Shown piece by piece: positions 4,054 through 38,700 of a stretch of DNA of 64,000 nucleotides. The notes below the pieces were generated by a model. It saw only the letters and a program-made list of their open reading frames with translations, was not told the DNA's origin and made no database searches. Both the position numbers and the translations under genes were made by a program. The DNA comes from Chrysoperla carnea (lineage: Eukaryota; Arthropoda; Insecta; Neuroptera; Chrysopidae). Position 1 is the first letter of the stretch. Each line of letters begins with the position of its first letter. Where the stretch lies: assembly GCF_905475395.1 (NCBI RefSeq), contig NC_058341.1:65603501-65667500 (forward strand), in the 5' to 3' direction.

Positions 4054-4061
4054 TAAATTTC
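4054..4061. repeat. Target duplication of the hAT element (left copy)
   Basis: GTAAATTT, identical to 7160-7167. Confidence 0.9.
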
Positions 4062-6732: not shown

Positions 6733-6763
<31 letters not shown>

Positions 6764-7159: not shown

Positions 7160-7176
7160 GTAAATTTACAATTAAA

Positions 7177-11652: not shown

Positions 11653-11798
11653 GTTAGAAAATTTTTTATAGACGTTTCACATATAATGACGCGATTGAAA
11701 TAATTTCAATAATTATTCTCTCTGATTTTAATACTCTCTACATCATAAAAAAACGTAATTTCATATAAAAACATATAATTCTATATGATTATTTATAG

Positions 11799-12105
11799 AA
11801 TCAACCGAGTACTTCACATGATGATCCTCCAGCAGAACCAATGGAAGTTTCAGATGATCAAGAGGAAAACAATATAATTGAACAGAGCAGTGATAATACA
11901 ATAAAGAAAATTTGTATTTTTTGCGGATGCTGGGAGAAGAGAAAAAAGAAACGTCGGGAATACCCAGTTAAAGATAACAACAATTTGGTCCAAAAAATCA
12001 GAGATATGTTGCTTGTCCTAAATGATGAAAATATTGAGCAGAGAATATGTGAATCATCATGTATCTACTATCACAGTGCATGTAGACATAGTTTCGAAAT
12101 GAAAT
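11799..12105 (+). CDS. Exon 3, left part, of the Academ-like protein: second Cys/His motif
   Basis: Acceptor TTTATAG ends at 11798. The frame gives NQPSTSHDDPPAEPMEV and then a CIFCG ... CESSCIYYHSACRHSF motif, a second version of the motif in exon 1. The exon is cut at 12105 by the Sola-like insertion and resumes at 14483 in the same frame. Read past the junction, the frame would stop at 12105-12107 inside the transposon. Confidence 0.65.
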
Positions 12106-14478
12106 GAAGAGTACAGGTGCAAAACTAGGAATGTCACCAAAAATCCAAAAGTTCTTTTATGGTGGCAACATTCTCGTTTTCCCGCGTATTTTTGAATAGC
12201 ACTTTACAAAAAGTGTAAAAACTAACATTGTCAGATGTATTAATAAGAATTCTAAACTGCGTACAGGAACATAACGTGGAAGGTCCACAGTGTAACGGAA
12301 CGTAACAAGGAATGTCCAACTGTCAAAATGTTTTATGTCAACTTTGAGGTTATCTCGAGTGTTTACGTTTGGAGCTGCTGCTTGTGTTACAAAAACTTAT
12401 TAGTTTTTTTAATTTAAATACTGTAAAATGAGTACTAGTGAGGAAGAAATCAATAACAATATCGTGCGTAACACGAAAAAGCGGAAGAAAACAGGAAGAA
12501 TGCGTGAAGTTATGAAGAAAATGAGAGTTTCTACGCACGAAGCAGGGGATGATTGCAAGTGTAAAAGATTAAAATGTTTTGATAGAATAACACCAGAGCA
12601 ACGTTCTAAATTACTTAGAGACTTCAACAGCATGAAGTGTACTGATGAACAAAATATTTACTTATGCGGCTTGATTAATGTGTGTTCAATAAAAAGGCGA
12701 CGAAGTAGAAAAGCAGATGAAATGGATGCTAATTTCCATCAAACCCATTTCACTTACAAAGTGAGAGTGATGGAAAATGAAGAAACGAAAGAAGAACCTG
12801 TATGCTACAAGGCATTTATATCCATCTTTGGTATTAGTAAAGGAAAACTTGAACATCTTCAAAAGTCATTAAAAATTTCAGGAACTGCACCAAGTGACAA
12901 GAGAGGCAAATCAAGTTCAAATAAAAGATTGGACAGCAGTGTTAGAGATTTGATATGTAATCATATAAAATCCTTCAAGGGACGGCTAAGTCATTACAGT
13001 TTGAATGATACAAAAAAAGAATATCTACCTGAGGACCTTAACATTAAGAAAATGTATAAGTTATACTTGGAGGCATATGAGTCAAAAAATCATGTTTCTT
13101 ATGAAACTTACAGAACCATCTTTAACACAGAGTTTAATATTTCATTCGGCTATCCGAGAACTGATACCTGCAGTGCTTGTGATGAATTTACAATAAAAGC
13201 AAAGGCATTGAAAGCTGAAGAAAATGTTGAGGAACTGAATCGGTTAACTGTTCTGAATAATCTGCATAAGAAAAAGGCTCAAACATTTTATGATCGTAAG
13301 AAGAATGCAAGAATTAAGAGCAAAACAAATGTGGAATTTCAGGCAATTGCCATGGACTACCAAAAAAACGTGTCATTGCCAAACATTACAACAAATGATG
13401 TTTATTACAAGCGGCAATTATCAATGTATTCTTTTAACATCCATGCATTAGGTGATGCAAGCTCTTATTTTTATACATATCCAGAAACATGTGGACGAAA
13501 GGGTTCAGATGAAGTAGTTTCATTTCTACTTCATTATATAACACACTACATGGATAATCGTGTGAAGCATTTAGAAATATTTTGCGACTCCGCAGGCGGC
13601 CAAAATAAGAATTACACTGTAATAAGATTTATCCATTTCGTTGTTCATAGAATGAAACTTTTGGATTCAATCAAAATAACATATCCAATACGAGGACATT
13701 CTTACTTAGAGTGTGATAAAAATATGGGCCTAATTAATTTAAAAGCTCACATGGAAGTGCCATATCAATGGTATGATTTGCTGAGAGCTAGTCGCCAAAG
13801 ACCCAAACCATTCGAGGTGATTGAGGTAGGAATAGGTGAACACATCAGAAAATTTACAGATTTTTTTCAAAACCAGTACTTGAAAAAGTGCTCGTTTCCA
13901 GTCCAATCCCAAAGAGAATTAATGTGTGTACGAGAACACCCTAGAGTTATTTTACACAGAAGTAACTATAATGGTATATGGGAGAAATCACCTATTGTGG
14001 CAAAAAAGGGGGCAGGACCAGATACTTCAAATGAATTTGAATTGCCAGAATTTGCTTACCAAAAGTTTTTGCCAATTAGTGCAGAAAAGTATAAGGACTT
14101 ATCAGATTTAAAAAGATTTTGTTCAGCAGGGGCCCAAGCATACTTTGAAAGCATTCCACATGTCTAACAGTAGTACATTTAGTTAAACTTAACAAGGAAT
14201 GGACATTCCTTGTATGTATGGGAAGCTCTGGACATTCCCAGTTTTATCAAATTACAAAGGTGACCTACTTATATTTTTCTTAATTTTTAGATTTTTTGAT
14301 TTTCAAAAAAGTATGAATATTAGCATAAAATAAAACTTTAAAATGTAAACTTAAGTTCCTATAAGAGATTCATAAATATTAGTAGTACCTAAGAAAAATG
14401 TAGACTTTTAAAAATAAAAATGTTAATTACACATTTCTTTGTTTTTGTGACATTTCTTGTTTTGCCCCTGTACCCTTC
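12106..14478 (+). mobile_element. Sola-like DNA transposon inserted in the Academ-like coding exon
   Basis: TIRs of about 32 bp start GAAGAGTACAGGTGCAAAAC at the left and GAAGGGTACAGGGGCAAAAC as reverse complement at the right, with 4 mismatches seen. The flanks are a perfect 4 bp duplication AAAT (12102-12105 and 14479-14482). Four-base duplications are typical of the Sola superfamily. Removing the element and one AAAT rejoins the host reading frame exactly. AGGAATGTCC-type motifs recur just inside both ends (12127, 12309, 14192, 14233), one as a palindrome, and may be transposase-binding sites. Confidence 0.8.
12428..14167 (+). CDS. Intact Sola-like transposase (579 aa)
   Basis: ATG 12428 to TAA 14165-14167 with no break. 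The N-terminus is lysine-rich, with CKCKRLKC near residues 42-49. A CSACDEF motif near residue 248 and the motif EIFCDSAGGQNKNYTVIRF near residue 388 are the clearest signatures. D(x)C/A-GGQNKN-type motifs with a following aromatic stretch are typical of Sola-type and related insect transposases, where the aspartate is thought to be catalytic. The 4 bp duplication agrees with this. I am sure it is a transposase of this element and less sure of the exact superfamily. It is the only intact DNA-transposon transposase in the window. Confidence 0.7.
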   Translation: MSTSEEEINNNIVRNTKKRKKTGRMREVMKKMRVSTHEAGDDCKCKRLKCFDRITPEQRSKLLRDFNSMKCTDEQNIYLCGLINVCSIKRRRSRKADEMDANFHQTHFTYKVRVMENEETKEEPVCYKAFISIFGISKGKLEHLQKSLKISGTAPSDKRGKSSSNKRLDSSVRDLICNHIKSFKGRLSHYSLNDTKKEYLPEDLNIKKMYKLYLEAYESKNHVSYETYRTIFNTEFNISFGYPRTDTCSACDEFTIKAKALKAEENVEELNRLTVLNNLHKKKAQTFYDRKKNARIKSKTNVEFQAIAMDYQKNVSLPNITTNDVYYKRQLSMYSFNIHALGDASSYFYTYPETCGRKGSDEVVSFLLHYITHYMDNRVKHLEIFCDSAGGQNKNYTVIRFIHFVVHRMKLLDSIKITYPIRGHSYLECDKNMGLINLKAHMEVPYQWYDLLRASRQRPKPFEVIEVGIGEHIRKFTDFFQNQYLKKCSFPVQSQRELMCVREHPRVILHRSNYNGIWEKSPIVAKKGAGPDTSNEFELPEFAYQKFLPISAEKYKDLSDLKRFCSAGAQAYFESIPHV

Positions 14479-14482
14479 AAAT

Positions 14483-17400
14483 ATAAAAGAGCAATAGCAG
14501 AACAAAATGAAGAAGATTCTGAATCTCAATTGTGGCCTGAAAAACGTCAAATTCATCATCAAGCATTCCAGATATTAGAAGAGTTTTTAAAGGAGGAAAT
14601 TTTAGAAAAACAGAACATCTTCTTATATGCTGATGTCTTCAAGCGGTATATAGCTTCATTAAATGAATTAGCTGCAGAACGTGAAATAATTTGTGATTTT
14701 GAGAATTATCGAATGGAGCATTTGCAAGCTAAAATTTTACATAAATATGATGATGTTTTAGCTATTGAAACAACCAAGGAGCATAGCTACAGAAAAATTA
14801 TTTATAAAAAAAACATAAGATTGGATCATGACTTGGCAGAAAAAATAATTTCTACATCATCAGAAAAATATAAACTACGCGATATTGCTTACTCTCTTCG
14901 TCATGATATATTAAACGTAAAAACTAAAAAACCACGAAAAATAGGTTCGGCATATATCACAAAAGGAGATTGTGATATTCCGGATTCATTGCAGTCCTTC
15001 ATTTATCATTTAATAAAAGGCCCAAATTTACGCAGAAAACTATCGGATGAAGATACCACAAGAATAGAATCAATATGCAGTGATTTGATTTATATAGTGA
15101 ATAAAGGAAGAATAAAGCCCGTAAAGCATATAATGTTAGGATCATCATTAAAATCATTAACTGGAAGTAAAAAAATTTTGACATTTTTAAATAAATACGG
15201 TCATTGTGTGTCATATTCTGTAGCTGAGGAATTAGAAACAGAAATGACATATACTGCATATGAAGAAAATAGTATAATTCCAGCAGGCATCATCAGAGAT
15301 CAAGATTTATGTACCCACGTCGCATTCGACAATTATGATCGTTTTGTCGATACAATAAATGGCAAAGAAACTCTTCATGATACTGTTGGCATTATCTATC
15401 AATTTAAAGCTGACAATCATGAAGAAACCATTGATAATGATGAATCACCAGACAATAGTACATCCGTATCAAGATCAAATAAAAGACGTAAATTTGATGT
15501 TATTCCTCGCGATATAGCTACATATCCAAAAACACCGAGAGCTGCTACATGTCTCCATCCGTACGAATATTTAGAAAATATTTCAGCAGAAAATTATATT
15601 TTTAAACAGGATGCAATTCTTAGAGACATTATTTGGGCAATTTCAGTTACATTTATACCACAAACTCCAATGTGGGTTGGTTTCAATAGTCAAACTTTAA
15701 TAGATAATAGTGAGCTACAAATAGTTGACTATTTACCACAAATCAATACATCTCCAACATCTTATAATACAGTTCTGCAAACTTTGAAAAAAACACAAGA
15801 AATTGCCAAGCAGTGTGAACAAGAAAACATAATAGTTACGTATGATTTAGCCATTGCAAGGATGGCAATGAAAATTCAAATCACCGAAAGTCCCACTTAT
15901 GACAACATTTTTATCAACATGGGGGCTTTTGACATACAAATGGCATTTTTTAAGGCTCTTGGTAAATACATCGATTCTTGTGGTATTGAGGTTGTACTTG
16001 GAGAATGTGAAATTCTTGCTTCTAGTTCAGTAAACGGGTTTATAAATGCCAAACACTTCAATCGATGTAAAAGAATTCATCCCATTATTGCTGGTGTAAT
16101 GCAATCATTACATTTTGAGCAATTTATAAATGAAAATGAAGATTTACTGGATGATTCATTTGTTCCCGATTTAATAAACATTCAAATGGCTCCGACAGAA
16201 TCGAACACCGATATAATTTTACCCATTGCATTAAAAGAATTACTAGGGAAATATCAAATCTTTATTAAATCAACGTTAAAAGGTAAACATGGAAAAACTG
16301 CTCAATTTTATCTACAGTACGTAGAATTCATGAATATATATTTTCGATTTTCGAGAAGTATTCGGACTAGCAATTTTAATCTTTATATCGAGTCTCTTTC
16401 TGAAATGGCTGACTTATTCTTCATTTTTAATCAGCAAAACTATGCTAGATGGATCCTCATGTACCATAAAAATTTAATAGATATGAGAGATAACAATAAT
16501 CCGCTATTTCAACATTTTTTACAAGGTGCTTTTGGGATTAAACGAACGAATAAAAATATAGCCAGAGTTCCTATTGATCTCACATTAGAACAAACTGTTA
16601 ATGCAGATGCAGCCAACACATTGACTGGAATTACTCATTTTACAAATTCTATCTCGGCCAGACAGCGTTGGGCCTTGAGTCACACATTAAGAACAAAAAT
16701 AATTACCAAGCTTTTAGAGTCTATACAGTATATAGAACAAGACGACATTAATCGTGAACTGGAACAAAATAGAATAATCAAGGATCGCAAGGCGTTCACT
16801 GATTTATCAGATAGTATCGAAAAATGTATGACTCCTTTCAGCTCAGAAATAGATCGAGACAATTTATTTCATATAGCAACGGGTAAAGCAGTATCCAATG
16901 AAACCAGTGAATTTTTGTTAAATGCTAAAGTGAAAGGTATGCAACAAAAACGCAAATTTATAGAAGAATGTGCAGTTGACGAGAATAGATTTGAAAGACC
17001 TATTAAAAAAAATAAAATATTAAATTTTGCAAGTGAATTTTGTAAAAAATCTAGCAAGATTAACTGTGGGAAATAAAGTACGATCCGAACAGAAAGAGAT
17101 ATTTTTGGACGATTGTTGGGGATTTCACTGAAGAAGAAAATAGATATGGAAACGTGTTTTAAATATCCATTGTCTCCATCACCACCAGCATTGACTTATA
17201 CGACAAGAGAAATGTTTAAGACCGATAAATCTGCATTAGCGAAAAAATTAACTTCTTCAATAAAATCCTCAATACCAGATCACATAGACATTGAGATTAT
17301 TGATGGTTTCTATTTATTACACAATTTAGGACCATCTATGCCTCAAGCATTTGGTAAGATAGGAGAATACATACTCAAAAAAATATGTAATACCACAGCG

Positions 17401-17640
17401 TCAGAAATACATCTAATTTTTGATAGATATTTTTCACCCTCGATTAAAGATTCAGAAAGATTAACACGAAAAGAAAATGACATACCATTTGCAATCGCAG
17501 GACCTCCACAGAGTAGACCAACTGATTTCAATAAACGTTTAAGTAACCCTAAATTTAAAGAATCAATAGTACAATTTTTACATAAGCATTGGAAAGAGGA
17601 TTCATTCAGCTCCATTCTCAATGAAAAAAAATTTTTTTAA
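14483..17640 (+). pseudogene. Exon 3, right part: central region of the Academ-like protein (one in-frame stop)
   Basis: After the AAAT duplication the host frame resumes and runs open to TAA 17074-17076. It then continues in the same frame (RDIFGRLLGISLKKKIDMET onward) to TAA 17638-17640. Conserved blocks include SSLKSLTGSKKILTFLNKYG, the FDNYDRFVDTINGKETLHDT stretch near 15340, MWVGFNS near 15670, VTYDLAIARMAMKIQ near 15835 and NAKHFNRCKRIHPIIAGV near 16050. These recur in large Academ-type proteins of insects and cnidarians. The aspartate in YDLAIA and later acidic residues may belong to an RNase-H-like core, but I cannot assign a DDE triad by eye. Only the stop at 17074 interrupts about 1,050 codons. 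Confidence 0.7.
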
Positions 17641-18053
17641 CAGTTGAAGACCAATGCTTCGTTTACACTAATGTCAATGGAGCTGTCTCGCGGACATTAA
17701 TCGAGGATTATGCATGTTATCACGAAGAAGCTGATACGAGAATTTTCTTCCACTTGAAAAAATGTTTACCTCACCAAAAAATTCTCATTAAATCTGTAGA
17801 TACTGACGTGTTAATCATTTGTCTCGGAAATATTCACAAATTCGAAAACCAAAAAATATGGATAACAAATAAATTAGGTAAAGAAATTAATTATATAAGT
17901 TGTACAGATCTTGCACGAGAATTAGGTCCATCACTTTGTCGAGCTCTTCCGGGCTTCCATGACTTCACAGGTTCTGATTATACAGCAGAAATTTTTTGCA
18001 AGCACCAGTCACAAAGAACAATTTTACAAAGATCTTATAAATTTCAATTCTAG
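17637..18053 (+). pseudogene. FEN1/XPG-like nuclease signature of the Academ-like protein (frame-shifted part 1)
   Basis: A single-base shift in the A8T7 tract at 17624-17638 leads into this frame. It contains YHEEADTRIFFH (near 17726), SVDTDVLIICLG (near 17797) and GFHDFTGSDYTAEIF (near 17953). The spacing and residues mirror the acidic motifs of FEN1/XPG 5' nucleases (EAEA, DxD, GSDY). Related transposon proteins usually read TGCD or TGSD at the last motif. A second slip in the T6 run near 17992 moves to the next frame, so the tail of this ORF after about 17995 is not native. Confidence 0.65.
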
Positions 18054-18345
18054 CATTATTCCTCCATGCTGGAAAACTCTGTCACAAAAAGTTTTACGCA
18101 CCATATTTATAAATGCAATGTGGCAAAATGCCACTGAGCCAATTTGTATTTTATTCGAACCAACAGAATGTGGATGGCAACTAAATCAAGAAAATAAGTT
18201 GGAACCATTGTGGTATAAAGGCCCAGCAGCACCTTCAAAAGTTGAAGAAATTCTTAGTAGCCAATTAAATGAAGAAGAAAGTGAAGAATCAGAAAATGAA
18301 AACCGTTATGATATAGATGAAATTGATTTCGATGATTATCAATAA
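17959..18345 (+). pseudogene. C-terminus of the Academ-like protein (frame-shifted part 2)
   Basis: From about 17993 the native frame continues FFASTSHKEQFYKDL and passes through CWKTLSQKVLRTIFINAMWQ. It then has ECGWQLNQENKLEPLWYKGPAAP and ends in an acidic tail at TAA 18343-18345. The CGW...P.W..PAAP block matches the EEWGW...PAPEKLL block of the second copy at 40501-41115, showing that both belong to one family. Here the tail is acidic, whereas the second copy has a cysteine cluster. AATAAA motifs follow at about 18342 and 18363. Confidence 0.65.
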
Positions 18346-18540
18346 ATATACTAAGTTTGAGAATAAACTCCTGTCAATTATTTCAATATTATTTTATTGT
18401 TTCACTTATCGAAAATAAAAATTCTCCTATTATTCCTTAAATCATATTAATCCTCATATTCTTTTAAATCTAAACAGAGAAAAAGAATCTTATTCGACAA
18501 AAAGCATTTACTCCAAAATAAATGTATTGAACATCGTACA

Positions 18541-18990
18541 TTTTGGAGTAGATGCTGTGATATAGTTTATGCACTTCAAGATGGTATGCGGGATTTTTCC
18601 GGCAGTTTTTGAGCGCACATACCAAGCTATTTTTAAAAATTACATAAAAATGAATAAAAAAAAAAAAAAGTTTCCGGCATGATGGAGAAATTTTAGCCCT
18701 CATCACACACTTCAAATTGGTATGCCAGACTCTTCCGGCAAGAAAAAGTGGTTTGCGTGATTTTTTTCTAAAAGCTAATAAAATTTACTGTCGAATGCAT
18801 AAAAAAAATTAATATCCGCGATGACGGTAAAACATTTTTCCATTTTTTAAATAATTTTTTTTTTTCACATCGTTTCGGCAATAGGAATCCACGCATACCG
18901 AGCTTAATTTATTCCTATACTTACGTTCTATTTATTTAAATAAATATTTTTTGGTTCCGCTATGGCGGGACTTTCAGTGTTACCGGCTCC
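18541..18990. repeat. Right TIR of the Academ-like element
   Basis: Pairs with 7523-7972; ends ...GTGTTACCGGCTCC. Confidence 0.9.
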
Positions 18991-19327
18991 CCGCCTAAAT
19001 TTATTAATGGTAATCTAGTTGCTATTTTTTTTAAACAATTTTTGTTTTAAAACAAGTCGATTATAATAAGACATATGGGAAAAAATATTTAAAATTGTTT
19101 TCGGAAAAATAAAATATGAACCTTTCGAATAAATTTATATATTTATCAAAATGGATAGAAATTTTCGAATAATTTTTTATATTTGGGATAAAATATATGA
19201 AATACAGGAATGAAATTATATATTCAGATGCAGAAATACATATTATAAAAGTAGGAATAATTTTTTGATTATTAAAAATTTTCATTTCAGCATGCTGTTA
19301 CGAAGCTCTTTGTTATAAAAAATGTTT
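18991..19327. other. Intron-like part of the giant MULE between the Academ-like and copia insertions
   Basis: AT-rich and non-coding apart from a possible exon start after TTTCATTTCAG (ends 19290). The bases after it run into the copia target site GATAT. Confidence 0.35.
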
Positions 19328-19332
19328 GATAT

Positions 19333-19551
19333 TGTTAGATATTAAAATTGAAATACGCGCCTCTTATAATTTTATGTAAACAATGTATACCTAGATGGCA
19401 CATATGTAAACATTAGAATATAGGAAGTAGAGTTTCAACATGTGTGTAAAAGGTGACTGAAATGAATAAAACTAAATTGATTGTAATCGATCTTTTTTTA
19501 TTATATTAAATCATTCAACAAATTTATCTTTCAATAAACATAAATTTATCA
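19333..19551 (+). repeat. 5' LTR of copia
   Basis: TGTTAGAT...TTATCA, 219 bp, same as the 3' copy by eye. Contains an AATAAA near 19533. Confidence 0.95.
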
Positions 19552-19725
19552 GGTTATGGGCCCAGATTTTCTCTGGGTAGTGCGCGATGTTAAAAATAAA
19601 TTAATAAAAATAAAAACTGAAAACAGTCTAACAATAAAATTAGTGAGGTTACGTATATTGGAACAGCGTGGAAAATTCTATGTACTTTTTGGAGGGAAAA
19701 CGTGTTGATTAAATTACAATTTAAG

Positions 19726-22700
19726 ATGGCTGTTAATAATATAGTAGTGCCTATTTTGGAGGCAAATAACTACAATAATTGGGAATTTCGAATGAAACTA
19801 ATTTTGCAAAGAGAAAACTGCAGCAAAGCATTAGAAGATCCACCAGAAGAAACAGCAACTAATGAAGTGAAGTTGTCCTTCTCGAAAGCGGATATTAAAG
19901 CTCAATCATTAATTGTACAAGGGGTGTCAGACAAACATTTGGATATAATTAAAGACTGCACAAGTGCAAAATCGCAATTCGAAAGTTTAAAAAATGTGTT
20001 TGTGAGAACAAGCTCGTTCACAAAATTATCTCTGTGGATGAAGTTAATTAACCTTAAACATGATGTGAATGAAGGGTTAGAAGACCATTTCTTCAAATTT
20101 GAAACTATAATTCGCGAACTTAAAGATCAAGGATCAAACATCAATGATAGTGATCAAGTATGTCATTTTCTTCTCTCTTTACCTTCTAAATACGATATAG
20201 TCGTCACAGCCATCGAAACTATTAAAGATGTTAAGATGGATTTCGTGAAATCAAGGTTACTGGATGAAGAGTTGAAAATAAGTTCCAAAGACAGTATTGA
20301 AAATGAAACGGTGTTCAAAGCTAGTACAAATAAAGGATGTTTCACATGTGGTAGTACATTGCATATACAAGTATATTGTCCAAAAAGAAAAGTCCCACCA
20401 CATAGAGAAGGAAATAAAAACTTTCAACAAAATAATAGAGGTTGGAATACAAATTATAAAAATTACCAAAATGAAAGCTATCAAAATAAAAGGGATAATT
20501 ATCGTGAAAGTAAACAAGCAGCTAATACAGCTGAAGATACCTATGTAAATTTATACGCAGCAAATGTTTGTAATGAAAAAACCGGAAAAATAGTTTTTGT
20601 GTTGGATTCTGGAGCAAGCAATCATTTTGTTCAAGATTGTTTGGAACCTGTTATGCATGACGTTGAAAAATTGACACACTTTGTCGAAATTTGTACTGCG
20701 AATGGTCAAGTCATGAGAACAAATAAACAAGGAGTATTGAAAGCGGAATGTCAAGGTCGAAAAATAAATATTAAAGCACTTATCGTTCCAGAAATCAAAC
20801 ATAATCTTATATCAGCGTCAAAAATGACAGACAATGGTCATAAAATAATAGTCGAACAAGAAAAAACGATAATAACTAGTAACAATTTTAATTTAGAATG
20901 TGAAAAGGAAAATGGTTTATTCGTTCTAAAATTAGACGAAATAATAAAGAAAACAGAAAACTGTCAGGTAATGGTTAAAAATTTGTGGCATAAACGATTA
21001 GGACATGCAAGTAAAGAAGCTATTGCAAAGTTGGGATTAAAAATGTCAGATACAATTTGTTCATCGTGTGTAGAAGGAAAAGCTACTAGATATCCTTTTA
21101 AAAGAAATGAACAAAAAGCAAAAACTATTGGAGAGCTTGTACACAGCGATATATGTGGACCAATAAATCCAGGGACGTATGACGAAGGTAAATATTTTCA
21201 AGTCATCTTGGATGATTGCAGTCACTTTGTAGTTGTGAAAATATTAAAATTCAAAAATGAAGCTGAAAAAAATATAAAAGAATATGTAAATGAAATGGAA
21301 AGACAATTTGACATACGAGTAAAAAGGTTTAGGTTTGATAATGGGGGAGAATTCTCATCGGAAAATTTCAAGAATTTTTGTAGACAAAAAGGAATTAGAT
21401 TAGAATATACGATGGCGTATAGTCCTCAACAAAATGGAAAATCAGAACGTATGAATAGGACCCTACTGAATATGATTCGAACAAAAATAGCAGACTCAGG
21501 TATACCAAAAACTCTGTGGGGAGAAGCACTAAAGTGCTCAGTGTACGAGTTGAACAGAACACCAACAACTGGATTAGAATCAAATCAAACTCCTTCGACA
21601 ATGTGGCATGGACGAAATGATATAAGTAAACTGAAAATATTTGGATGTAGAAGTTGGTTCACAATAATGCCAAAAGGTAGCAAACTTGAACCCAAGGCCA
21701 AGAAGGCAGTTATGGTTGGTTATTGCGGTGGAGGGTATCGATTATGGTTACCAGATGAAAATAAGATCATCAAGTCGAGAGATGTACGGTTTGATGAAAA
21801 TATAATGGAGTATAAATTTAAAAATAATGAAGAAAAGAGATATCTGCGAGCCGAAGTAGACGTGGATCAAGAAGAAGAAACCGAAATAAATACAAAGAAG
21901 ATTGAAACAGACGAAGAAAATGAAGAAAATAAAAATCATGAAGAAAGTGAAGAAGAAGATGTCGTGTCAGCCAATACAAGAACAAAATCTGGGCGAAGTA
22001 TTACAAGACCGAAAAATTTATCCGACTATGAAATATATGAAGCATATTGTTTATTGTCAAGTTCAAGTGAAGAACCGAAAACGTACAAAGAAGCAGCAAA
22101 ATCACCAGAATGGCAACAAGCGATAGAACGTGAATTAGAATCTCACAAGAAACTGGAAACATGGTCATTAGCCGAACTTCCAGAAGATAAAATAGCTATT
22201 GATACACGATGGATTTTTAAAATCAAAGAAGGTGGTCAGAAGAAAGCCCGATTAGTAGCAAAAGGCTTTCAAGTGCCCAAAGAAGACGAAGAGTTTAGTT
22301 ATTCACCAGTTTGTAGACTTTCAACTATCAGAATTTTGTTATCAATAACAATTCAAAGAAATTGGACACTAAGTCAAATAGACGTTCCAACAGCATTTCT
22401 TAATGGAATATTGGAAAATGACGTGTACATAAAAACACCCGAAGGTTTAAATTGTCAATCTCAAGTGTTGAAATTGAATAGAGCCTTGTATGGTTTAAGA
22501 AATGCACCAAAATGCTGGAATATTAAATTCAATGAAGTTATGACGAAACTTAAGTTTAATCGTTCAGAGTATGATTATTGCCTATATAAAAACAATGATG
22601 TGTATTTGATATTGTTTGTTGACGATGCGCTAATTACAGGACCAAAAGAGAAAGTTGAAAAGTTGGTGAAAGATTTATACATTGAATTCAATGTTAAAAA

Positions 22701-23538
22701 CATAAAAGAAGTAAAAATGTTCTTAGGAATGGAAATCCATAAAACAACGAATGAAATCAAGATAACTCAACATAAAATGACTTTGCGATTACTAAATGAA
22801 TTCAATATGATGGAATGTCGTTCTGTTGAAACACCAATGGAACAAAATTTTCAGATAGATGAAACACAACAGGTTTTGGTAAACATTCCTTACAGAAGAT
22901 TGGTGTGTAGTTTGATGTATCTTGCAGTCGTCAGTAGACCGGATATAACTTTCAGTGTATCAGTGTTAAGTCGATACCTTGATAAACCTACGATGCAACT
23001 TTGGAAAGCTGCAAAACGAATCCTAAGATACCTAAGTGCAACAATGGATTATGGAATCAAATTCGAAAAAGGAAAAAGTGGTTTAGAAGGAATGTGTGAT
23101 GCTGATTGGGGTGGAGATAAACAAAGCAGGAAAAGTATTAGCGGATTTGCTGGTTTTCATTCTGGAAATATTATTGCATGGCACTCAAGGAAACAAAAGT
23201 GTGTCGCACTGTCATCTATGGAAGCAGAATATGTGTCAGCAAGTATTGCAACGCAAGAATTGGTAAATTTGAAAGGTGTTTTATCCGAATTTGGTGAATC
23301 AGTTCCAATTATATTAAAAATTGACAATCTGAGTGCAATTTCTTTAGTTAAAAATTTTGAAAACTCAAAAAGAAGTAAACACATTGAAATCAAGTATCAC
23401 TTTATAAAAGATTTGTGTAATAAAAAACAGGTTGTTTTGAAATACGTGTGCTCAAAAGAAAACTGTTCAGACATTTTCACAAAAGCTCTTGGCAGAGAAA
23501 AATTTCAAAATTTTAGAAACCTTTTTGTGAGTGCTTAA
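19726..23538 (+). CDS. Copia Gag-Pol polyprotein (1270 aa)
   Basis: I take ATG 19726 (MAVNNIVVP) rather than the in-frame TTG 24 bases upstream. The order is Ty1/copia: Gag with a CCHC knuckle (CFTCGSTLHIQVYC, near residue 205) and protease (VLDSGASNHF, near 292). Integrase follows, with an HHCC region (HKRLGHAS near 422, CSSC near 446) and a core with HSDICGP, RFDNGGEF and the PQQNGKSERMNRT glutamate. Next is RT with ALYGLRNAP and the LFVDDALI active site (near 968), then RNase H (CDADWGGD, SSMEAEYVS). It stops at TAA 23536-23538. All catalytic motifs that I can check are present. The polyprotein would be cleaved by its own protease in virus-like particles. Confidence 0.96.
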   Translation: MAVNNIVVPILEANNYNNWEFRMKLILQRENCSKALEDPPEETATNEVKLSFSKADIKAQSLIVQGVSDKHLDIIKDCTSAKSQFESLKNVFVRTSSFTKLSLWMKLINLKHDVNEGLEDHFFKFETIIRELKDQGSNINDSDQVCHFLLSLPSKYDIVVTAIETIKDVKMDFVKSRLLDEELKISSKDSIENETVFKASTNKGCFTCGSTLHIQVYCPKRKVPPHREGNKNFQQNNRGWNTNYKNYQNESYQNKRDNYRESKQAANTAEDTYVNLYAANVCNEKTGKIVFVLDSGASNHFVQDCLEPVMHDVEKLTHFVEICTANGQVMRTNKQGVLKAECQGRKINIKALIVPEIKHNLISASKMTDNGHKIIVEQEKTIITSNNFNLECEKENGLFVLKLDEIIKKTENCQVMVKNLWHKRLGHASKEAIAKLGLKMSDTICSSCVEGKATRYPFKRNEQKAKTIGELVHSDICGPINPGTYDEGKYFQVILDDCSHFVVVKILKFKNEAEKNIKEYVNEMERQFDIRVKRFRFDNGGEFSSENFKNFCRQKGIRLEYTMAYSPQQNGKSERMNRTLLNMIRTKIADSGIPKTLWGEALKCSVYELNRTPTTGLESNQTPSTMWHGRNDISKLKIFGCRSWFTIMPKGSKLEPKAKKAVMVGYCGGGYRLWLPDENKIIKSRDVRFDENIMEYKFKNNEEKRYLRAEVDVDQEEETEINTKKIETDEENEENKNHEESEEEDVVSANTRTKSGRSITRPKNLSDYEIYEAYCLLSSSSEEPKTYKEAAKSPEWQQAIERELESHKKLETWSLAELPEDKIAIDTRWIFKIKEGGQKKARLVAKGFQVPKEDEEFSYSPVCRLSTIRILLSITIQRNWTLSQIDVPTAFLNGILENDVYIKTPEGLNCQSQVLKLNRALYGLRNAPKCWNIKFNEVMTKLKFNRSEYDYCLYKNNDVYLILFVDDALITGPKEKVEKLVKDLYIEFNVKNIKEVKMFLGMEIHKTTNEIKITQHKMTLRLLNEFNMMECRSVETPMEQNFQIDETQQVLVNIPYRRLVCSLMYLAVVSRPDITFSVSVLSRYLDKPTMQLWKAAKRILRYLSATMDYGIKFEKGKSGLEGMCDADWGGDKQSRKSISGFAGFHSGNIIAWHSRKQKCVALSSMEAEYVSASIATQELVNLKGVLSEFGESVPIILKIDNLSAISLVKNFENSKRSKHIEIKYHFIKDLCNKKQVVLKYVCSKENCSDIFTKALGREKFQNFRNLFVSA

Positions 23539-23657
23539 ATTATATTAATTGAAATGTGTACTTTTTTATTTTTTTTATAATTGAAATTTTTTTTATTTTG
23601 TTTTACAATTGAAATGTATACTTTATTTTTTTTTAATACATTTAAATTGAGGCGGTG

Positions 23658-23876
23658 TGTTAGATATTAAAATTGAAATACGCGCCTCTTATAATTTTAT
23701 GTAAACAATGTATACCTAGATGGCACATATGTAAACATTAGAATATAGGAAGTAGAGTTTCAACATGTGTGTAAAAGGTGACTGAAATGAATAAAACTAA
23801 ATTGATTGTAATCGATCTTTTTTTATTATATTAAATCATTCAACAAATTTATCTTTCAATAAACATAAATTTATCA
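23658..23876 (+). repeat. 3' LTR of copia
   Basis: 219 bp, same as the 5' copy by eye. Confidence 0.95.
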
Positions 23877-23881
23877 GATAT

Positions 23882-24028
23882 ATCACATTTGTTTACCTTT
23901 TTTTTTTCATTAATCTGATTACCTTGAATCCGTTAGAATATAATGAAAATTCAAATATGGGGGTGCTATCAATACGACTTTTTAAATAAATATTCTTGGG
24001 TAATGCTTATTGTAATATATATTGGCAG
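23882..24028. other. Intron end of the giant MULE gene
   Basis: Ends in ATATTGGCAG (24028), the acceptor of the OTU exon. Confidence 0.45.
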
Positions 24029-24988
24029 GTTGCAAAACAACGTAAAATACCCTGCAACAAGTATTTAAAAGGTCTTTTGCATTATCTATGGAATGAAGGT
24101 GATCTACGAGAAAAAGTGGAACACATTTTGCAATCAAAAATCAAAGGAGCAGATTGTAAAGTACTAAAACAATCATCAAAAAATATTCCAGACAATTTCA
24201 CCAAATCAAAGGCAAATGATTCTAAAAATTTGCAGTCAAATGTCAAGGGTGGAAACAATTTCACCGAATCAAAGGTAAATAATAAAAAAAATTATTTTGA
24301 AATAATTAAGATCAATCCCGATGGTAATTGTTTATTCCGCACTCTGTCGTGCGTTATGTACGATTCCCAAAATAAGTATACATTAGTACGACAAAAAATT
24401 GTAGATTATGCAATAAACAATTTTGATAATGAAAAAGATACCTTTAATGCCAGTTGTGTAGAACGTCAATATAAAGATGCCAAAGATTACGAATTAGTTA
24501 TGGGTGTAGATAAAACTTTCGGAACTGATTTCGAACTGGGAATTTTTGCGAAAATGTATAATAAAAAAATTAATATTTGGAAATTAGATGATAAAAATAA
24601 TTTTGTTTTTTCGAGTACCATCGATGCCGAAATAATTGAAGGAGAACCGTTGAATATCTTATTTACAGGGCATGAACGAAGAGGTCACTTTGAACTTTTA
24701 AAAATCAAAAGTCAAAATAATAAGACCCTTCAAAATTTACCACAATCAAGTCAAAAATCTGTAGGTATTTACGAATTCTCTGACGATGGTCCGATAAAAC
24801 CTTATCAAGTTGAGAAAGTTCAACAATTAAAAAGAACTAATACGGAAATAGTAAATACAATAATCACTACACAACCAGTTGAAACTGAAGAAGCTTTTAG
24901 CATCTCTCGCTCTCTTCAGAATTTATTTGCCGCTTATAAGCGAGAACTGTTTAGATTCTGTTATCACTACCGATTCTTTTGCTTTTGA
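24029..24988 (+). CDS. OTU-type cysteine protease domain of the giant MULE
   Basis: The exon opens after acceptor ATTGGCAG with VAKQRKIPCNKYLKGL. After a lysine/asparagine-rich linker comes an OTU domain: the NPDGNCLFRTLSC motif near 24314-24352 supplies the catalytic aspartate and cysteine. The GHERRGHFELLKI region near 24670-24705 supplies the histidine. OTU domains remove ubiquitin chains. The frame ends at TGA 24986-24988, but a related stretch (SISRSLQN) recurs about 130 bp downstream in another frame, so the protein probably once continued into the zinc finger. OTU domains in transposons are otherwise rare. Function in transposition is unknown; protection from ubiquitin-dependent turnover is one guess. 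Confidence 0.8.
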   Translation, partial: VAKQRKIPCNKYLKGLLHYLWNEGDLREKVEHILQSKIKGADCKVLKQSSKNIPDNFTKSKANDSKNLQSNVKGGNNFTESKVNNKKNYFEIIKINPDGNCLFRTLSCVMYDSQNKYTLVRQKIVDYAINNFDNEKDTFNASCVERQYKDAKDYELVMGVDKTFGTDFELGIFAKMYNKKINIWKLDDKNNFVFSSTIDAEIIEGEPLNILFTGHERRGHFELLKIKSQNNKTLQNLPQSSQKSVGIYEFSDDGPIKPYQVEKVQQLKRTNTEIVNTIITTQPVETEEAFSISRSLQNLFAAYKRELFRFCYHYRFFCF

Positions 24989-25025
24989 AAATTTTAACCA
25001 AGTAATTGAAACTTAAGAGCCTATT

Positions 25026-25617
25026 AGCATCTCCCGCTCTCTTCAGAATTATTCGCCGGTTAGAAGCGAGAAATCTTTATCAGTTTCATTAAGTATGCAA
25101 TCTTTAAGTTCAGACGAGGATAAAAGCGTCCGATTAACATCCAAATTACATGAAAAAATTAAAACTAAAGAAAAACGCAACCTTTATAAACATGCTCTTG
25201 GATGGGTTTGGATTGTTTGATACAACAACCGCTAATATCGCTACAGGTGATTACGTAGATACGGAATTATTAAGAAATAATATTAACTCAGGGATGATAC
25301 AACTTCGTTGCCCATGCCCTTATACATATTATAGTGATTTACGCCGAAACAAATATGGCTATGTTGCGTATGCTTATTGTCGTGTAGCATCTTGCGCCGC
25401 TAGATTTCGCTTTGATATCTATGAAATTGATAATAATTACATTAAAACAGTCGTAAGTTGTACAACAAACACTTTTGAACACGATGAAGATGGTAGGATA
25501 ATTTGTAGACAAATTCGAGGTAAAAATCGTCTAAAGATGATGAAGTTACTCGAGTATCGTTCAGCTAGAAATTTGCAATTAGAAGAGAAACAGAAATGTG
25601 ACAGAGTTACTCGCTGA
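25026..25617 (+). pseudogene. Linker and zinc-binding domain of the MULE transposase
   Basis: The frame from 25026 (SISRSLQNYSPVRSEKSLS, then SLSSDEDKS) shifts near 25180-25210 into the frame of 25150-25617. That frame carries CPCPYTYYSDLRRNKYGYVAY, AYCRVASCAARFRF and a later H, forming a FLYWCH/WRKY-like zinc-binding domain as found ahead of many insect MULE transposases. It ends at TGA 25615-25617, where the next frame (EKQKCDRVTELLAESG) takes over. The SISRSLQN repeat at about 24900 and 25026 is an internal duplication. Confidence 0.65.
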
Positions 25618-27061
25618 AAGTGGACTTGGACAAAGTTGTTATAGAATAAACACTTTACACAAAATTAAATCTGAGTATAATGTTGCTCAAAGAAAAACTT
25701 TAAAATCCAATGACATTTCGGATATTATGCAATCATATATAGATGAAAGACACGAAATAGATCCGTTCATTCGACAAGTTTCATTACCTTTACGAATTAT
25801 AATGTACACTAGGAAACAATTATGTACAATAAATCAAAAAAAAAAAAAAAATATAATTCTTTATTTCGATGCTACGGGTGCTAACGCTTATATACCGGAC
25901 TTTATGAAAAGAGCAAAAATACTTTACTACTGTTTACTTCATAGAGCGACCACAGCATCAATTCCTCTAGCAAAAATGATAACAGAGCAATATAATATAA
26001 AATCGATTTCCATTTTTTTAATGGAATATAAAATGTTTGTGCGTGAAGAACTTAATTCGTGGTCTCCAGCAAAAGCGATTGTTACGGATTGGAGTTGGGC
26101 TCTCATGAATTCGGTTATGTCTGTGTGGAATGAAATTGATATAATCGGATACCTAAAAATTTGTCACGATTATTACAAGTATTCAAAACCTTTTCCGACT
26201 AGAGTAGTAATTTTATTAAGCTGCTGTGCACACACTATTCATAGAGTTAGTAGAATAATTAGTAATACCTTTTCAGAATTGGTAAACATTAAAGCATTTC
26301 TACTGGAATGTGTTGCTATATTAATTCTTTGTCGCAACCAAATTCAAATGCAAACCATGTTCCTACTAATTTTAAATATTATCCTTCGAAAGGATCAAAA
26401 TCTAATAGCAAACTATTTTAAAGAATTCAAGACAATGTTAGAAAATAACAAAACATGTTATACAGATATTAAAAAGGAATTTGAAGGTTTAAAAGAAGAA
26501 GATTCGCCATTGGAAACCGATATAGTTCCTTATCGTAAAATCGTCTCAATATATGCGAACTCAGAGTTCTATATCGAATATAGGACAATTCTAGATAAAA
26601 CAAAAAAAGAAATAGACGCGGGGCAAACAGATTTTAAAGGAACAGTTTCAAAGTATTATGCGCCTCAATTTGCGGAATACTTTACTACTAACTTTATGCC
26701 CTATTGTCCGATTTGGGGTGGACTTATGCTCGATTTAGTGGATCCACCAATATCACGGGTTTCGAATGCGTATGTCGAAGCACACAATAAATATTACAAA
26801 GAAACCATTTTAAATGGACGGCGGTTAAATAAATTAGGCGATATAGTTCGCGCACTTCGACAGTACAACGAACAATTAAATACTGTAGACGAAATAGAAA
26901 CGTCAAGATCAAAGAAAATTAACGTAAAAGAGCGTCCATTATATCCAGAAGCCGCTGCGAATCCTTTTGAAACTGAAAAGTGGGAACGAAAGAAAAAGGG
27001 TATGCAAATTACAAAAAAAAATAAAACAAAGATCTTCACACATGGATGGAAAAGTAATTAA
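25598..27061 (+). CDS. MULE transposase catalytic domain
   Basis: 487 codons to TAA 27059-27061. The three acidic positions of MULE transposases can be proposed: NIILYFDATGAN (D, near 25867), AIVTDWSWALMNSV (D, near 26084) and NAYVEAHNKYYKE (E, near 26776). A CHDYYKY...CCAHTIHR cysteine/histidine region follows the second aspartate, as in other MULEs. A run of 14 A at about 25838-25851 stays in frame. The N-terminal zinc finger and the C-terminal linker are in other frames, so the full protein is broken here. The enzyme would cut at the TIRs of the parent element. Confidence 0.8.
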   Translation: MTELLAESGLGQSCYRINTLHKIKSEYNVAQRKTLKSNDISDIMQSYIDERHEIDPFIRQVSLPLRIIMYTRKQLCTINQKKKKNIILYFDATGANAYIPDFMKRAKILYYCLLHRATTASIPLAKMITEQYNIKSISIFLMEYKMFVREELNSWSPAKAIVTDWSWALMNSVMSVWNEIDIIGYLKICHDYYKYSKPFPTRVVILLSCCAHTIHRVSRIISNTFSELVNIKAFLLECVAILILCRNQIQMQTMFLLILNIILRKDQNLIANYFKEFKTMLENNKTCYTDIKKEFEGLKEEDSPLETDIVPYRKIVSIYANSEFYIEYRTILDKTKKEIDAGQTDFKGTVSKYYAPQFAEYFTTNFMPYCPIWGGLMLDLVDPPISRVSNAYVEAHNKYYKETILNGRRLNKLGDIVRALRQYNEQLNTVDEIETSRSKKINVKERPLYPEAAANPFETEKWERKKKGMQITKKNKTKIFTHGWKSN

Positions 27062-27542
27062 AAGAATAAGCCGCAAACTCAATCCTCAGGATACAAATAG
27101 TAAAAGAGATAAAAAGATACCTCAGGAAACAAAAGAAAAAAAGAAAAATATGCGTATTAAATTGCCAAATGTAGAATCCGAAAAAGAGGAACTAGTAGAG
27201 GTATTAGCAGAAAATAAATTAGATCTGCATGTTAAGACAAATCCTGGAACAATACAGAAATTAAAAGATAAACCAGACCTGTCAGACAATAATATAAACC
27301 TTGATATAGAAGTAATTGAAAATAAAATTGCAAAACCTAATAAAAGCTCTACCGTACAGCTGTTAGATAACGGATTAATAAGACCCGACGAACCTTATAA
27401 AAAATACTATTTATCATCCACTTCGCCTTATATAAACATAAGTAGTTATACAGGGTCTCAAAAGTGTTTTATAAATAAATTTAGAAAACACCAATTGAGA
27501 ACCATGAATTACAATGTTTGGAAAGTTCGAACAGCTGGATAG
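27041..27542 (+). pseudogene. Basic linker between the MULE transposase and the Ulp1-like protease
   Basis: A shift near 27045 carries the reading into this frame (HMDGKVIKRISRKLNPQ...), which is rich in lysine, glutamate and asparagine. It has a VQLLDNGLIRPDE motif, then YLSSTSPYINISSY. It ends at TAG 27540-27542 after a further shift near 27490. No catalytic motif lies in this stretch. It could instead be the N-terminal part of a separate second protein. Confidence 0.5.
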
Positions 27543-28286
27543 ATGGCGAAATAATTGATTCATACGTGGCATGTTATATAGAAGATTGGATGAATGTAAC
27601 CTATTTCCAAACAGATATTGGGGGAACAGTTCTAGGCGATAAATGGGAATGTAGACACAACAAGGAACAGAAATCTATTATGAATATAGAAGATAATTTA
27701 AATGACATACTTTTATTACCTTATCAATTTAATGCACACTGGCGCACACTTTATTGTTTGTACAGCCGAAAAAAAAAATCGAATAATTCTGTTAGATCCT
27801 TATAAAATTACAAATGACAATACAAGAGTCATGACAGCTTTTAAGAAGTTCATTAACATTTGTGATAGCAAGTCAACTTTAAAAAAAGTACTTTACCATA
27901 AAAAAGAATGGACCAATAGGGCATGGAAAAATCGCCCATTTCAACAAGAAAATCATTTTTCGAATTGTGGCTTGTATATAATTCTATATATTATAACAAT
28001 AGCCAAAAACTCAGAAGACCCGATCAACGAAGATCAAATTTTAAATTGTCTCGATTCTATCCCTTTCGATCCTGTTAAATTTAGGGAAGAGGTAAAAGAT
28101 ACATTGTTAAGAAAGTCCGAAAATGTCCATGATAAATGTTTGCATTGCTTGCGTCAAGTCAATAAAAAAAAAGAAGTAGAATGTAACACATGCAAACGAT
28201 ACATTCAAATTGTATTCAAGGTAATGAAATGTGTTCGGAGAATGAATTCAGAGAGACTAAACCGAAAAGAAAAAGACCATCGATAG
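27498..28286 (+). pseudogene. Ulp1/SENP-type cysteine protease domain with C-terminal Cys-rich motif
   Basis: The domain starts with SWIDGEIIDSYVACYIEDW (the Ulp1 WLND.II..Y block). It has NAHWRTLYCLY (catalytic histidine, near 27735), RIILLDPYK (aspartate, near 27785) and PFQQENHFSNCGLYIILY (glutamine and cysteine, near 27940-27985). This is the full H-D-Q-C arrangement of C48 SUMO proteases. A shift in the A10 tract at 27769-27778 separates the histidine from the rest. After the domain, CLHCLRQ...CNTC suggests a RING/PHD-like zinc motif; its frame ends at TAG 28284-28286. Plant Kaonashi MULEs carry Ulp1-like proteases. Together with an OTU domain in one element this is, to me, unusual. Confidence 0.75.
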
Positions 28287-28432
28287 GCATGTTTTCAATG
28301 TGTAGGTTGTGCAAAAAGCACCATGGAAAAACTAAATCTAACAATATATTCAGGTAAAAAGTTTTTCAAATAATTCAAATAAAATTTATTGTTTCGGGAT
28401 CGATCTTATTAATTACACCTAATTTAGTAATA
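28287..28432. other. 3' non-coding part of the giant MULE
   Basis: Contains a possible alternative-frame tail with further cysteines (CRLCKKHH) up to about 28350, then AT-rich sequence leading into the right TIR. Confidence 0.35.
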
Positions 28433-28713
28433 ATTGGAAAATAACCTAATACTTTTTTATTCAGTACATTATAAAGAATCATTTTTTGATAAAATCGGTG
28501 GACGGCGGCGACCATTATTCAGTTATTTATATGTAAAAAATTTTCAAAGGGCCGGGGGGGGGGGGGTGTTTGGTCCCTTGAATTGGAAAATGACCTAATA
28601 CTTTTTTATTCAGTACATTATAAAGAATTATTTTTTGATAAAATCGGTGGACGGCGGCCTAAATTTTTTTTTTATAATTTTCAGTTAATAACTAGTTGAA
28701 ACTTCAGTTACAT
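28433..28713. repeat. Right TIR of the giant MULE
   Basis: Reverse complement of the left TIR, with about 1.6 tandem units instead of 2.1 and a G homopolymer of about 13 at 28554-28567. Ends at ...GTTACAT 28713, followed by the TAAATTTT duplication. Confidence 0.85.
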
Positions 28714-28908
28714 TAAATTTTAGTATCCATAGGAACTTGTGAAATTTAAACGATTCAACATACAAAAAATGGCCATGTATTATTTCAAATGTAGACTTTG
28801 CGAGTCGATTACTTGAAAACTGATCCGAAACTCGAAAATTTCACTCTTCATTTTCGATTTATTTTACTTTGTTTAACCATATGCAATCGTCAAATCGTGG
28901 CACCACAG

Positions 28909-35700: not shown

Positions 35701-38700
35701 ACCGGACCAAATTCAATCAACAACGCGCTATCCGTTGAAAGACGATTGAAAAATTGCAACTTCAAGAGCGTATAGCGCCAAAACGGAGCAACTTTTACTG
35801 GGCAAGTTTAACCAAATCGACTTATTTTGAGCTAAACAATATGTGATAGAGCGAGTTATTTAACGAAACTTTCCGAATTCTTAATCGAGATGTCATTTAG
35901 ATAATTTATTACCAACGCTGTAACTCTGTATTAATAACTTTTGTACGTATAGGTTAATTTTTAACGATGCTTCAGTCCAAAATAACAATATAAATTTATT
36001 TCTTTTACAATTTAGTCCAAGACAGCCACAAAATATCGTAAAGGTGCTTGCGAAAATTGTGGAGCCGTAACACATAAACGTAAAGATTGCATGGAAAGAC
36101 CACGAAAAATTGGAGCCAAATTTACGGGAGCACATATAGCACCGGATGAGTTTGTCCAACCAGATTTATCTGTCAGCTATGACGGAAAACGAGATAGATG
36201 GAGTGGATACGATCCCTCTGAACATAAATCGATTATCGAAGAATTTCAAAAATTAGAAGAAGCTAAGCGTCAAATTCGTGCTGATAAATTAAGTGCAGAT
36301 GATGTTGCTGTAGAAGCGGATGAAGATAATGAGGATGAAGATAAATATGTTGATGAAGTAGACATGCCAGGTACTAAAGTCGATAGTAAACAGCGAATTA
36401 CTGTTCGTAATCTTCGAATACGTGAAGATACTGCCAAATATTTACGAAATTTGGATCCAAATTCAGCTTATTATGATCCAAAAACAAGATCGATGCGAGA
36501 TAATCCATTAGCAGGCACTGGTAAAGAATACGAGTGAGTTTTTTTAGAATTAATATTTAACACTTCAATTTAACTAGAAATTGCAAATAAAAGAAAGTAA
36601 AATTCTAACGTGCAGTAGATATTTCTGATAATATTAGTCCCTGAGCGTCATTTTTACTACTATTTAATCTCAAAATTGTTTCCATTTTAATCTATAATGG
36701 CTCATAGCTCGTTTTGCAGCTAACCAATCAAAAAATAATTTAAATAAAAGTTGCAAAGTTTGATGAAGGAACATCATGATCTGACATGAGATTGGATTTA
36801 GTTCTTCGGATTTCTTTTGAACAATTGCCTGTGTACATGACTTTGACCTACAATTATGGATAAACTTTAAGAGTATTTTCTTTCGATTAAATGCAATAAT
36901 CATATATTTTTAAATCACATTTCCTCCGAAAGCTAACGTTTTTCGAAAAAATGTTAAAAAAAAATTGTTAGTTTTTTAGATGACCGAGCTTTACTCGGTA
37001 TTTTTTGAGTTAAAAAGATATAAATTTTATGACTAATATAAGAGCTATTTAAAATGTCTCCACACAAATACCAATTTGAATGTCCCGGTAATGTACTTTA
37101 TTTTGTCACCAATAGATGTCAGGTTGAGTCATATTTTACAGTCAATATTTCAGTTTTCCCAAAACATGGATAAAAAAAATTTTTATAATGTAGTTAAAAT
37201 TCTTGTTATTTTTGGAGTCGGTGTCAGCCAAGGAAACAACTCTGACAGAACAGTTTGCTACATTAGCTTGGCAGACACCGACTCCAAAAAGAACAAGAAT
37301 TATAACTACATTATACTATCGTTATTTTTTACTTTTTAGTGCGTATTAATTTATTTTGGAAATATTTTTCTTTTGAAGTCGGTTTTCTTTTTGTTAAAAG
37401 TTTTTTTTTTTATTTTGTGATTTTTAGTGAATCTGAAGTACACTAACTAACTGAAATCCGTTGGCCTGATACTGAGTTATTTGTCCTCTTGTCGTGCATA
37501 CTTGCTGCAATTTTAAGACTTTTATAGTTTTCTCATGGATGCCGTCAAAACTAGACCAAAATGAAATGGGACCACACGGGAAGAACCAGCTTTCAAACAG
37601 ATAAAGAATCATCGGTTCACCCAGTCAAAAGTTCTGTGGTAACAAACATTAAAAAAAAAAAAAAAACAGTCGAATTGATAACCTCCTCCGTTTTTGTTTG
37701 AAGTCGGTTAAAAAGACGTTTTCAAAAAAATGAAACCTAGCTAAAATCGTTAGAACCGTTTCCGAGATTGCTGATACATATCGTTAGGCCCTGGACGGCG
37801 TTATCCTTAAAATCGCACCAGATCAATCATATTTTATTATTATTAAGTAATATATTATTTATGTAACCTAAATTAACTAATTGTAAACAAGTATTATTTT
37901 GATTATTTAGCGTCAGCAAAATTAATATTTAATTTTTACGTCACAATATTTAATATTTTGAACCTAAAAGTTTTGTATTTGAAGGCATCGCTAAATGATC
38001 AGAATTATACAGTATTATACAAACGTAAAACATCATACAGTTATTATTTGACATTAGAATTGGGATCAATTAATTACGCTTCAGTAATCCTTACTACGAT
38101 TTCAAAGTAAATAATTAATCATCAAGAAATACAATTTCAAAATAAACAACTTACTAGTATTAAACGGAATTCAGTGTTTGTGTTAATTTATCCTCAAGGA
38201 TTTTACCAATCTTTTCCTTGTAAAATAATTGAAATTGGTTGGTAGCAGCATCTTCCCTGAACCAATTTGGGTACACGACAGAATTCAAGACCCTAACCCA
38301 AAGCAGTACCGTAACAATACATTTCAATTTGGTGGCGGATTGCACAAATTAGCAAGGAGTAACATTCACTAGCTAATTCTTACTGATGATGACTACTTGG
38401 TAGTCGAAAATACGTGTTTTAAAAATACAAAAAACTGATCTAGGAAATTGGGGCAAAAAATCGAAATTTATTTCGACATATCCTAGAGTTCTCATTTATT
38501 ATCTTCGATAATATTTATATTTAGCTAGTTGCCTATATTTGTTTAAGCTGAACAGCTGTGTGAAAAATTGTATGAATTTGTTATTTTTACAGGGCCGAAT
38601 ATGGTGGAGAAAATTATGTACGTTTTTCTGGTGATACACAAAAACATGCTCAAGCTCAATTATTTGCTTGGGAAGCATATGGTAAAGGAGTAGATGTTCA

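Follow-up and report, generated by a model that had tools for sequence, protein, structure and literature searches.

This locus raises the question of whether one DNA transposon could have carried a deubiquitinase-type and a SUMO-protease-type domain as parts of its own protein, or whether such domains came to lie beside its transposase by later events. The locus lies within a 64,000-nucleotide stretch of the Chrysoperla carnea genome (contig NC_058341.1), which we call the window and to whose positions all coordinates refer. The original prediction had assigned an OTU motif, a zinc finger, a candidate D-D-E set of a Mutator-like element (MULE) transposase, the H-D-Q-C residues of a Ulp1-type protease and a Cys-rich motif to a single element bounded by terminal inverted repeats, and the codons, the repeats and a target duplication were all found. 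The element is probably a decayed Mutator-like (IS256/MuDR-type) transposon whose ancestral polypeptide consisted of an OTU domain, a zinc-binding segment, a DDE transposase, a Ulp1-type domain and a PHD-like finger, the two proteases being isopeptidases.

The extent first proposed, 24029-28286, was too short: the element spans 3186-28713 (25.5 kb in the window). The region originally delimited covers the 3' portion of its gene, which probably has its first exon from 7177 onward. Long inverted repeats close the element, the left one (3186-3569, plus strand) starting with ATGTAACTGAAG and containing internal tandem units of ~148 bp, the right one (28432-28713, minus strand) containing two ~149-bp units; 3179-3467 and 28432-28720 are 95% identical over about 290 bp. 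The ATGTAACTGAAG termini are bracketed by the 8-bp target site duplication TAAATTTT at 3178-3185 and 28714-28721. In the same genome, the terminal 133 bases have at least 503 matches, many in arrays of ~148-bp repeats, and among the matches listed we counted 16 facing pairs of full-length ends besides the window's. When the ends of the 10 highest-identity pairs were fetched, a perfect 8-bp duplication flanked all 11 elements (these ten and the window's), while 110 pairings of flanks that are not partners gave none. The 16 pairs enclose none of the 53 MULE matches in an incomplete list and therefore look non-autonomous; with their ~148-bp satellite arrays they appear foldback-like and are about 2-16 kb long.

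Inside these borders, the six-frame translation of the window, with Pfam run on the open reading frame (ORF) pieces, gave one order on the plus strand: OTU, Cys-rich segment, DDE transposase, Ulp1-type domain and PHD-like finger. A possible first coding exon (MKLDINKIGEIIAAHIK..., followed by GTAAGT), proposed from sequence only, occupies 7177-7281. The OTU segment (24029-24985) retains its catalytic codons (D 24320-24322, C 24329-24331, H 24686-24688), and the predicted motif was recognised by PF02338 (E 4.7e-6; 27.6 bits versus a cut-off of 23.3). It is followed by the Cys-rich N-terminal segment of the transposase (25138-25614), which probably binds zinc, and by the DDE domain itself (25583-27058), whose codons D 25868-25870, D 26087-26089 and E 26777-26779 sit at the sites expected from an RNase H-like structure model with a helical insertion. 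This model resembles the ISCth4, P-element and Hermes transposases, and in a viral fold library the best match was the bracovirus protein O92526 (E 7.3e-8); Phantom MULEs are carried by insect viruses. A charged linker (26928-27539) leads to the Ulp1/SENP-type domain (27485-28129, in two frames), which keeps its H (27737), D (27795), Q (27942) and C (27966) codons, and the C-terminus is a PHD-like Cys/His finger with a tail (28130-28354, also in two frames). AlphaFold2, run on a three-sequence alignment, reached a predicted local distance difference test (pLDDT) score of 38.

Two proteins from other sources align with these parts. The X-joined read-through found a single protein, P0002 (1514 amino acids, E 4e-152, 6926 candidates), which is one open frame and is colinear from end to end with the OTU, zinc-binding, MULE, Ulp1 and PHD parts of the window at about 30% identity, with both protease active sites complete. 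In Pfam only PF02338 exceeded its cut-off in P0002 (E 3e-7, 31.4 bits), and phmmer matched it in the PDB to OTUD5 (1.3e-7), SENP5 (5.8e-6) and yeast Ulp1 (0.01). The MULE frame alone likewise found one protein, P0001 (670 amino acids, E 1.6e-30), comprising the C-part of the MULE domain, a Ulp1-type domain that passes PF02902 (E 9.7e-5; 22.7 bits versus a cut-off of 20.7) and a PHD-like finger. The Cys/His pattern of this finger aligns in the window, P0001 and P0002; the Pfam PHD profiles match P0001 weakly (E 0.046 and 0.95, under cut-off) and do not match P0002. Nothing useful came from viral contigs searched with these two proteins and the OTU piece, from prokaryote genome contigs searched with P0002, or from phage collection and NCBIfam searches.

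The same genome holds further copies, in which the domain order foreseen for them is kept in part (L044 to L047), although none is intact among the matches listed. L047, about 7 kb upstream of the window element, runs uninterrupted from OTU to mid-Ulp1, and is near enough that it could be a local duplicate and not an independent insertion. L044 (contig C4) and L045 (C5, 0.57 Mb away) have OTU, zinc-binding segment and MULE in the same order at 38% to 82% protein identity over the matched stretches, L045 retaining the linker as well, while L046 (C6, reversed) retains MULE, Ulp1 and PHD at 95-97% DNA identity. The same terminal repeats were found 2 kb from the MULE match of L046, and a second one was absent from the further 4.1 kb fetched; near this copy lies an 822-bp inverted repeat of 100% identity (C6:9106000-9110100, positions 2032-2853 and 3280-4101 of L069). 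The coding region of the window copy is damaged by frame disruptions, and breakpoints differ between copies: L047 reads in one frame from the Zn segment into MULE, L046 does so from MULE into the linker, and the MULE frame is open in the window. Because the open frame of P0002 is colinear with the window gene and the order is kept in part in other copies, we regard OTU and Ulp1, on these alignments, as old, built-in parts of the element and not later insertions. This agrees with the prediction of one transposon with its own OTU, MULE and Ulp1 domains.

Selection on the domains was estimated as the ratio of nonsynonymous to synonymous substitution rates (dN/dS; NG86 on codons aligned via tblastn, window against each copy). 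For OTU the ratio is 0.39 (0.22-0.64) against L045 and 0.38 (0.20-0.69) against L044, values which argue that this domain was constrained while these copies diverged from the window copy. The MULE domain gave 0.67 (0.52-0.85) against L045, 0.36 (0.26-0.51) against L044 and 0.76 (0.24-2.68) against L047.

Several observations weigh against the reading of a protease-bearing Mutator-like transposon. The Pfam MULE profile PF10551 has no match in the window ORF or in P0002, although the D-D-E residues of the predicted MULE domain take the positions expected from the RNase H-like model; sub-threshold matches at the same profile positions occur in L036 (0.036) and in four of ten scanned sister proteins (P0005, P0007, P0009, P0011). 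The predicted Ulp1 domain fared similarly, as C48 (PF02902) was not called on the window pieces, on the X-joined C-terminal part or on P0002, but it is passed by P0001 and P0002 matches SENP5. P0001 itself has alanine where the Ulp1 cysteine should be (about residues 545-550) in an otherwise open frame, and P0002 was compared as a protein sequence. Among the genomic copies seen, only the window's has the full OTU-to-PHD set: the stretches fetched show no Ulp1 match in L044, none past the linker in L045 and no OTU in L046, the L047 match ends inside Ulp1 at window position 27803, and the matches listed for this genome, with 31 of 113 candidates scored, include no intact copy. In the nearer comparisons dN/dS is broad or high, namely 0.29 (0.09-1.48) for OTU against L047, 1.39 (0.74-4.43) for MULE against L046, 0.69 (0.45-1.12) and 0.37 (0.10-1.80) for the Ulp1 pieces against L046 and 2.50 (0.94-4.16) for Ulp1 against L047. 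These near copies carry few changes and may have separated after decay set in; the within-genome ratios do not settle constraint on Ulp1, the case for which would rest on P0002. Neither the USP nor the MULE profile of Pfam matches the sister protein of 1082 amino acids (see below). Lastly, according to the available text of one study, the activity of OTU domains borne by transposons was still untested (PMC9741609).

How the parts might work together can be outlined. The transposase part would bind the ATGTAACTGAAG ends and insert the element with 8-bp target duplications, and both cysteine proteases would serve as isopeptidases, working in cis or close to the DNA that is bound. Ubiquitin would be stripped by OTU, in the simplest case from the transposase, sparing it degradation; Ulp1 would strip SUMO (or ubiquitin) from the transposase or, at the element, from proteins of repair or silencing, and the PHD-like finger could anchor the complex to chromatin. 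The most economical role is one in which OTU would guard the transposase from ubiquitin-dependent loss and Ulp1 would clear SUMO at the bound locus, and the element may in this way evade ubiquitin- or SUMO-based control by the cell.

Three other explanations have to be weighed. The two proteases could process a transposase polyprotein, as viral cysteine proteases do, and free transposase, OTU and PHD with no action on ubiquitin or SUMO; the single 1514-residue frame of P0002, which contains every part, and a weak match of the window Ulp1 piece to the adenovirus endoprotease (PF00770 E 0.018, under cut-off) would suit this, the adenovirus enzyme having the same fold as Ulp1 and processing viral proteins. 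We nevertheless find it unlikely, as OTUD5 and SENP5 are the best matches of P0002 among solved structures and we know of no OTU domain that processes polyproteins. Similarly improbable is that the domains are kept mainly for binding ubiquitin or SUMO or for structure (recruitment, dimerisation), with catalysis secondary. The missing Ulp1 cysteine of P0001 and the unsettled Ulp1 ratios speak for such a role, whereas the full catalytic sets of both domains in P0002 and the window, and the presence of another catalytic class (USP-like Cys and His boxes) at the C-termini of the relatives P0007 and P0008, are more easily squared with a common chemistry than with a common surface.

Far less probable, indeed barely credible, is that OTU and Ulp1 are host gene fragments captured passively in the manner of Pack-MULEs, or later insertions, even though gene capture is described for MULEs in the available part of PMC6431247 and the window copy is itself riddled with inserted elements. 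Diverged copies show the same domain order over the lengths that they cover, OTU to Ulp1 is unbroken in L047, the whole is colinear with P0002, and OTU has dN/dS below 1 in two comparisons. Later insertion of OTU or Ulp1 as such is ruled out for this lineage by L047, L044, L045 and P0002.

The preferred reading, a Mutator-like transposon with two isopeptidase domains, can be set beside known systems. Ginger1 elements make target duplications of about 4 bp, compared with 8 bp here, and no integrase profile was among the Pfam hits of the window pieces or P0002, no motif search for the Ginger1 H2C2 and GPY/F having been made. The likeness is that Ginger1 also joins a DDE transposase to OTU or Ulp1 and, in one family, to PHD, two aphid families having OTU; its transposase, however, is Gypsy-integrase-like, its protease domains are C-terminal whereas our element has OTU at the N-terminus and Ulp1 at the C-terminus, and Table 1 of the source lists OTU or Ulp1 per family, not both (PMC2836005, as far as its available text goes). 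The same portion cites Mutator elements with Ulp1 from plants, hydra and lancelet, which share MULE transposase and Ulp1 with our element but for which OTU goes unmentioned there; according to a figure legend, Ulp1 and PHD were aligned between Ginger1 and Mutator transposases, and the authors suggest that repair factors may be targets of Ulp1 and OTU in transposition.

Mutator traits of our element are the RNase H-like DDE domain with a helical insertion between the second D and the E, the long terminal inverted repeats and the 8-bp duplication, which falls within the 8-11 bp given for MULEs (PMC6446971, in part). It resembles Rehavkus, placed in MuDR by Repbase (PMC4455052, in part), in its PHD-like finger and the minisatellite near its ends: Rehavkus has a PHD finger and inverted repeats of 26-400 bp, and Rehavkus-1_TC has tandem 164-bp repeats in its inverted ends against ~148 bp here (PMC6446971 Table 1, PMC10218199). 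The available portions of both sources leave OTU and Ulp1 unmentioned and, compared by description only, Rehavkus differs in its 9-bp duplications (PMC6446971 Table 1). An outright placement in Rehavkus is ruled out by the 8-bp duplications in 11 of 11 elements. Spectre MULEs are also arthropod elements with 8-bp duplications, but have 74-bp ends and a zinc finger in a separate ORF, with no proteases mentioned in the accessible text (PMC6446971). Zisupton/KDZ elements share the 8-bp duplication by description, not by transposase comparison, and OTU and Ulp1 do not appear in the portion available (PMC12730594).

Two deubiquitinase classes in one transposon protein are known from Helitrons and Helentrons, where 121 VTD-Helitrons also carried OTU and prevention of proteasomal loss has been proposed; these are rolling-circle Rep-helicase elements with no DDE transposase, and Ulp1 has no occurrence in the main text (PMC9741609, in part). 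The combination of OTU and Ulp1 in a single Mutator-like protein was not found in the searchable literature, partly available and exclusive of Repbase reports and most subscription papers, and the main texts of two MULE surveys (PMC13359780, PMC6446971) contain 'OTU', 'ULP' and 'protease' zero times. With Ginger1 carrying OTU or Ulp1, Mutator elements Ulp1, and Helitrons OTU plus another deubiquitinase, the present protein would be a variant on these precedents.

Sister families of MULE-like genes are intact in the same genome, with 12 loci of 1107-1109 and 17 of 1082-1083 amino acids among the matches listed (for instance L036:187-3507, minus; L038:553-3873, plus; L048:432-3677, minus). Two 1107-residue copies compared in full are nearly identical and, because there are many copies of the same length, these families were probably active recently. 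Instead of OTU and Ulp1, the 1107-residue sister has a USP-like C-terminus (UCH E 3.9e-5, slightly under cut-off), and that of the 1082-residue sister is USP-like only by eye. Tentatively, removal of ubiquitin-family marks could be a standing part of the transposase across an animal Mutator-like clade, with the enzyme class swapped between lineages (OTU, Ulp1 and PHD versus USP-like), and could work on ubiquitin and SUMO alike as a counter-defence, opposing degradation as well as SUMO-dependent silencing; this is a possibility we hold with less than even confidence. Silencing of the latter kind operates in flies, for example in the Su(var)2-10 pathway (PMC7272611, in part). Transposon enzymes that possibly undo host marks have been reported both for DNA methylation, as TET/JBP in fungal KDZ and other transposons, with a proposed escape from silencing (PMC12730594), and for ubiquitin, as VTD in Helitrons (PMC9741609), both sources in part. 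Elsewhere in the genome OTU-domain pairs stand in tandem, at 5.8-kb spacing in seven units and in 2462-residue open frames (C3:3764748-3807377, L010 and L023; C7:188071; C7:379696, L013); L009 to L023 have OTU matches with no MULE or Ulp1 match.

The size of the window copy is explained by nesting. In L047 the window segments 3558-4060, 7160-7516, 18998-19332 and 23877-27803 are contiguous at 97-98% identity, and therefore three elements, all on the plus strand and absent from L047, entered the window copy later. These are a hAT element (4061-7159; 8-bp duplication GTAAATTT at 4053-4060 and 7160-7167; hAT dimerisation domain E 0.001, slightly under cut-off), an 11.5-kb element (7517-18997) with ~460-bp inverted repeats and the 4-bp duplication AATT, and a copia element (19333-23876) with long terminal repeats identical across 220 bp and the 5-bp duplication GATAT. 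Judged by this alignment, they enlarged an element of ~6.4 kb to the 25.5 kb of the window copy. Within the 11.5-kb element lie a DDE_1 gene that weakly matches PHD (8446-9693), the frame of a DUF7869 protein (12413-14164) and, at 14404-17637, long frames with no Pfam match over cut-off. Within the MULE gene a coding stretch of ~75 bp (SISRSLQN..., at 24872-25079) is duplicated 127 bp apart, as it is in L047. Downstream of the element lie a host exon of the splicing factor Slu7 (36016-36534; PF11708 E 6e-49) and a retroelement, BEL/Pao-like by eye only, with a 1430-residue open frame (58367-62659, minus) and an 854-bp repeat whose copies at 57321 and 62584 are 99.6% identical.

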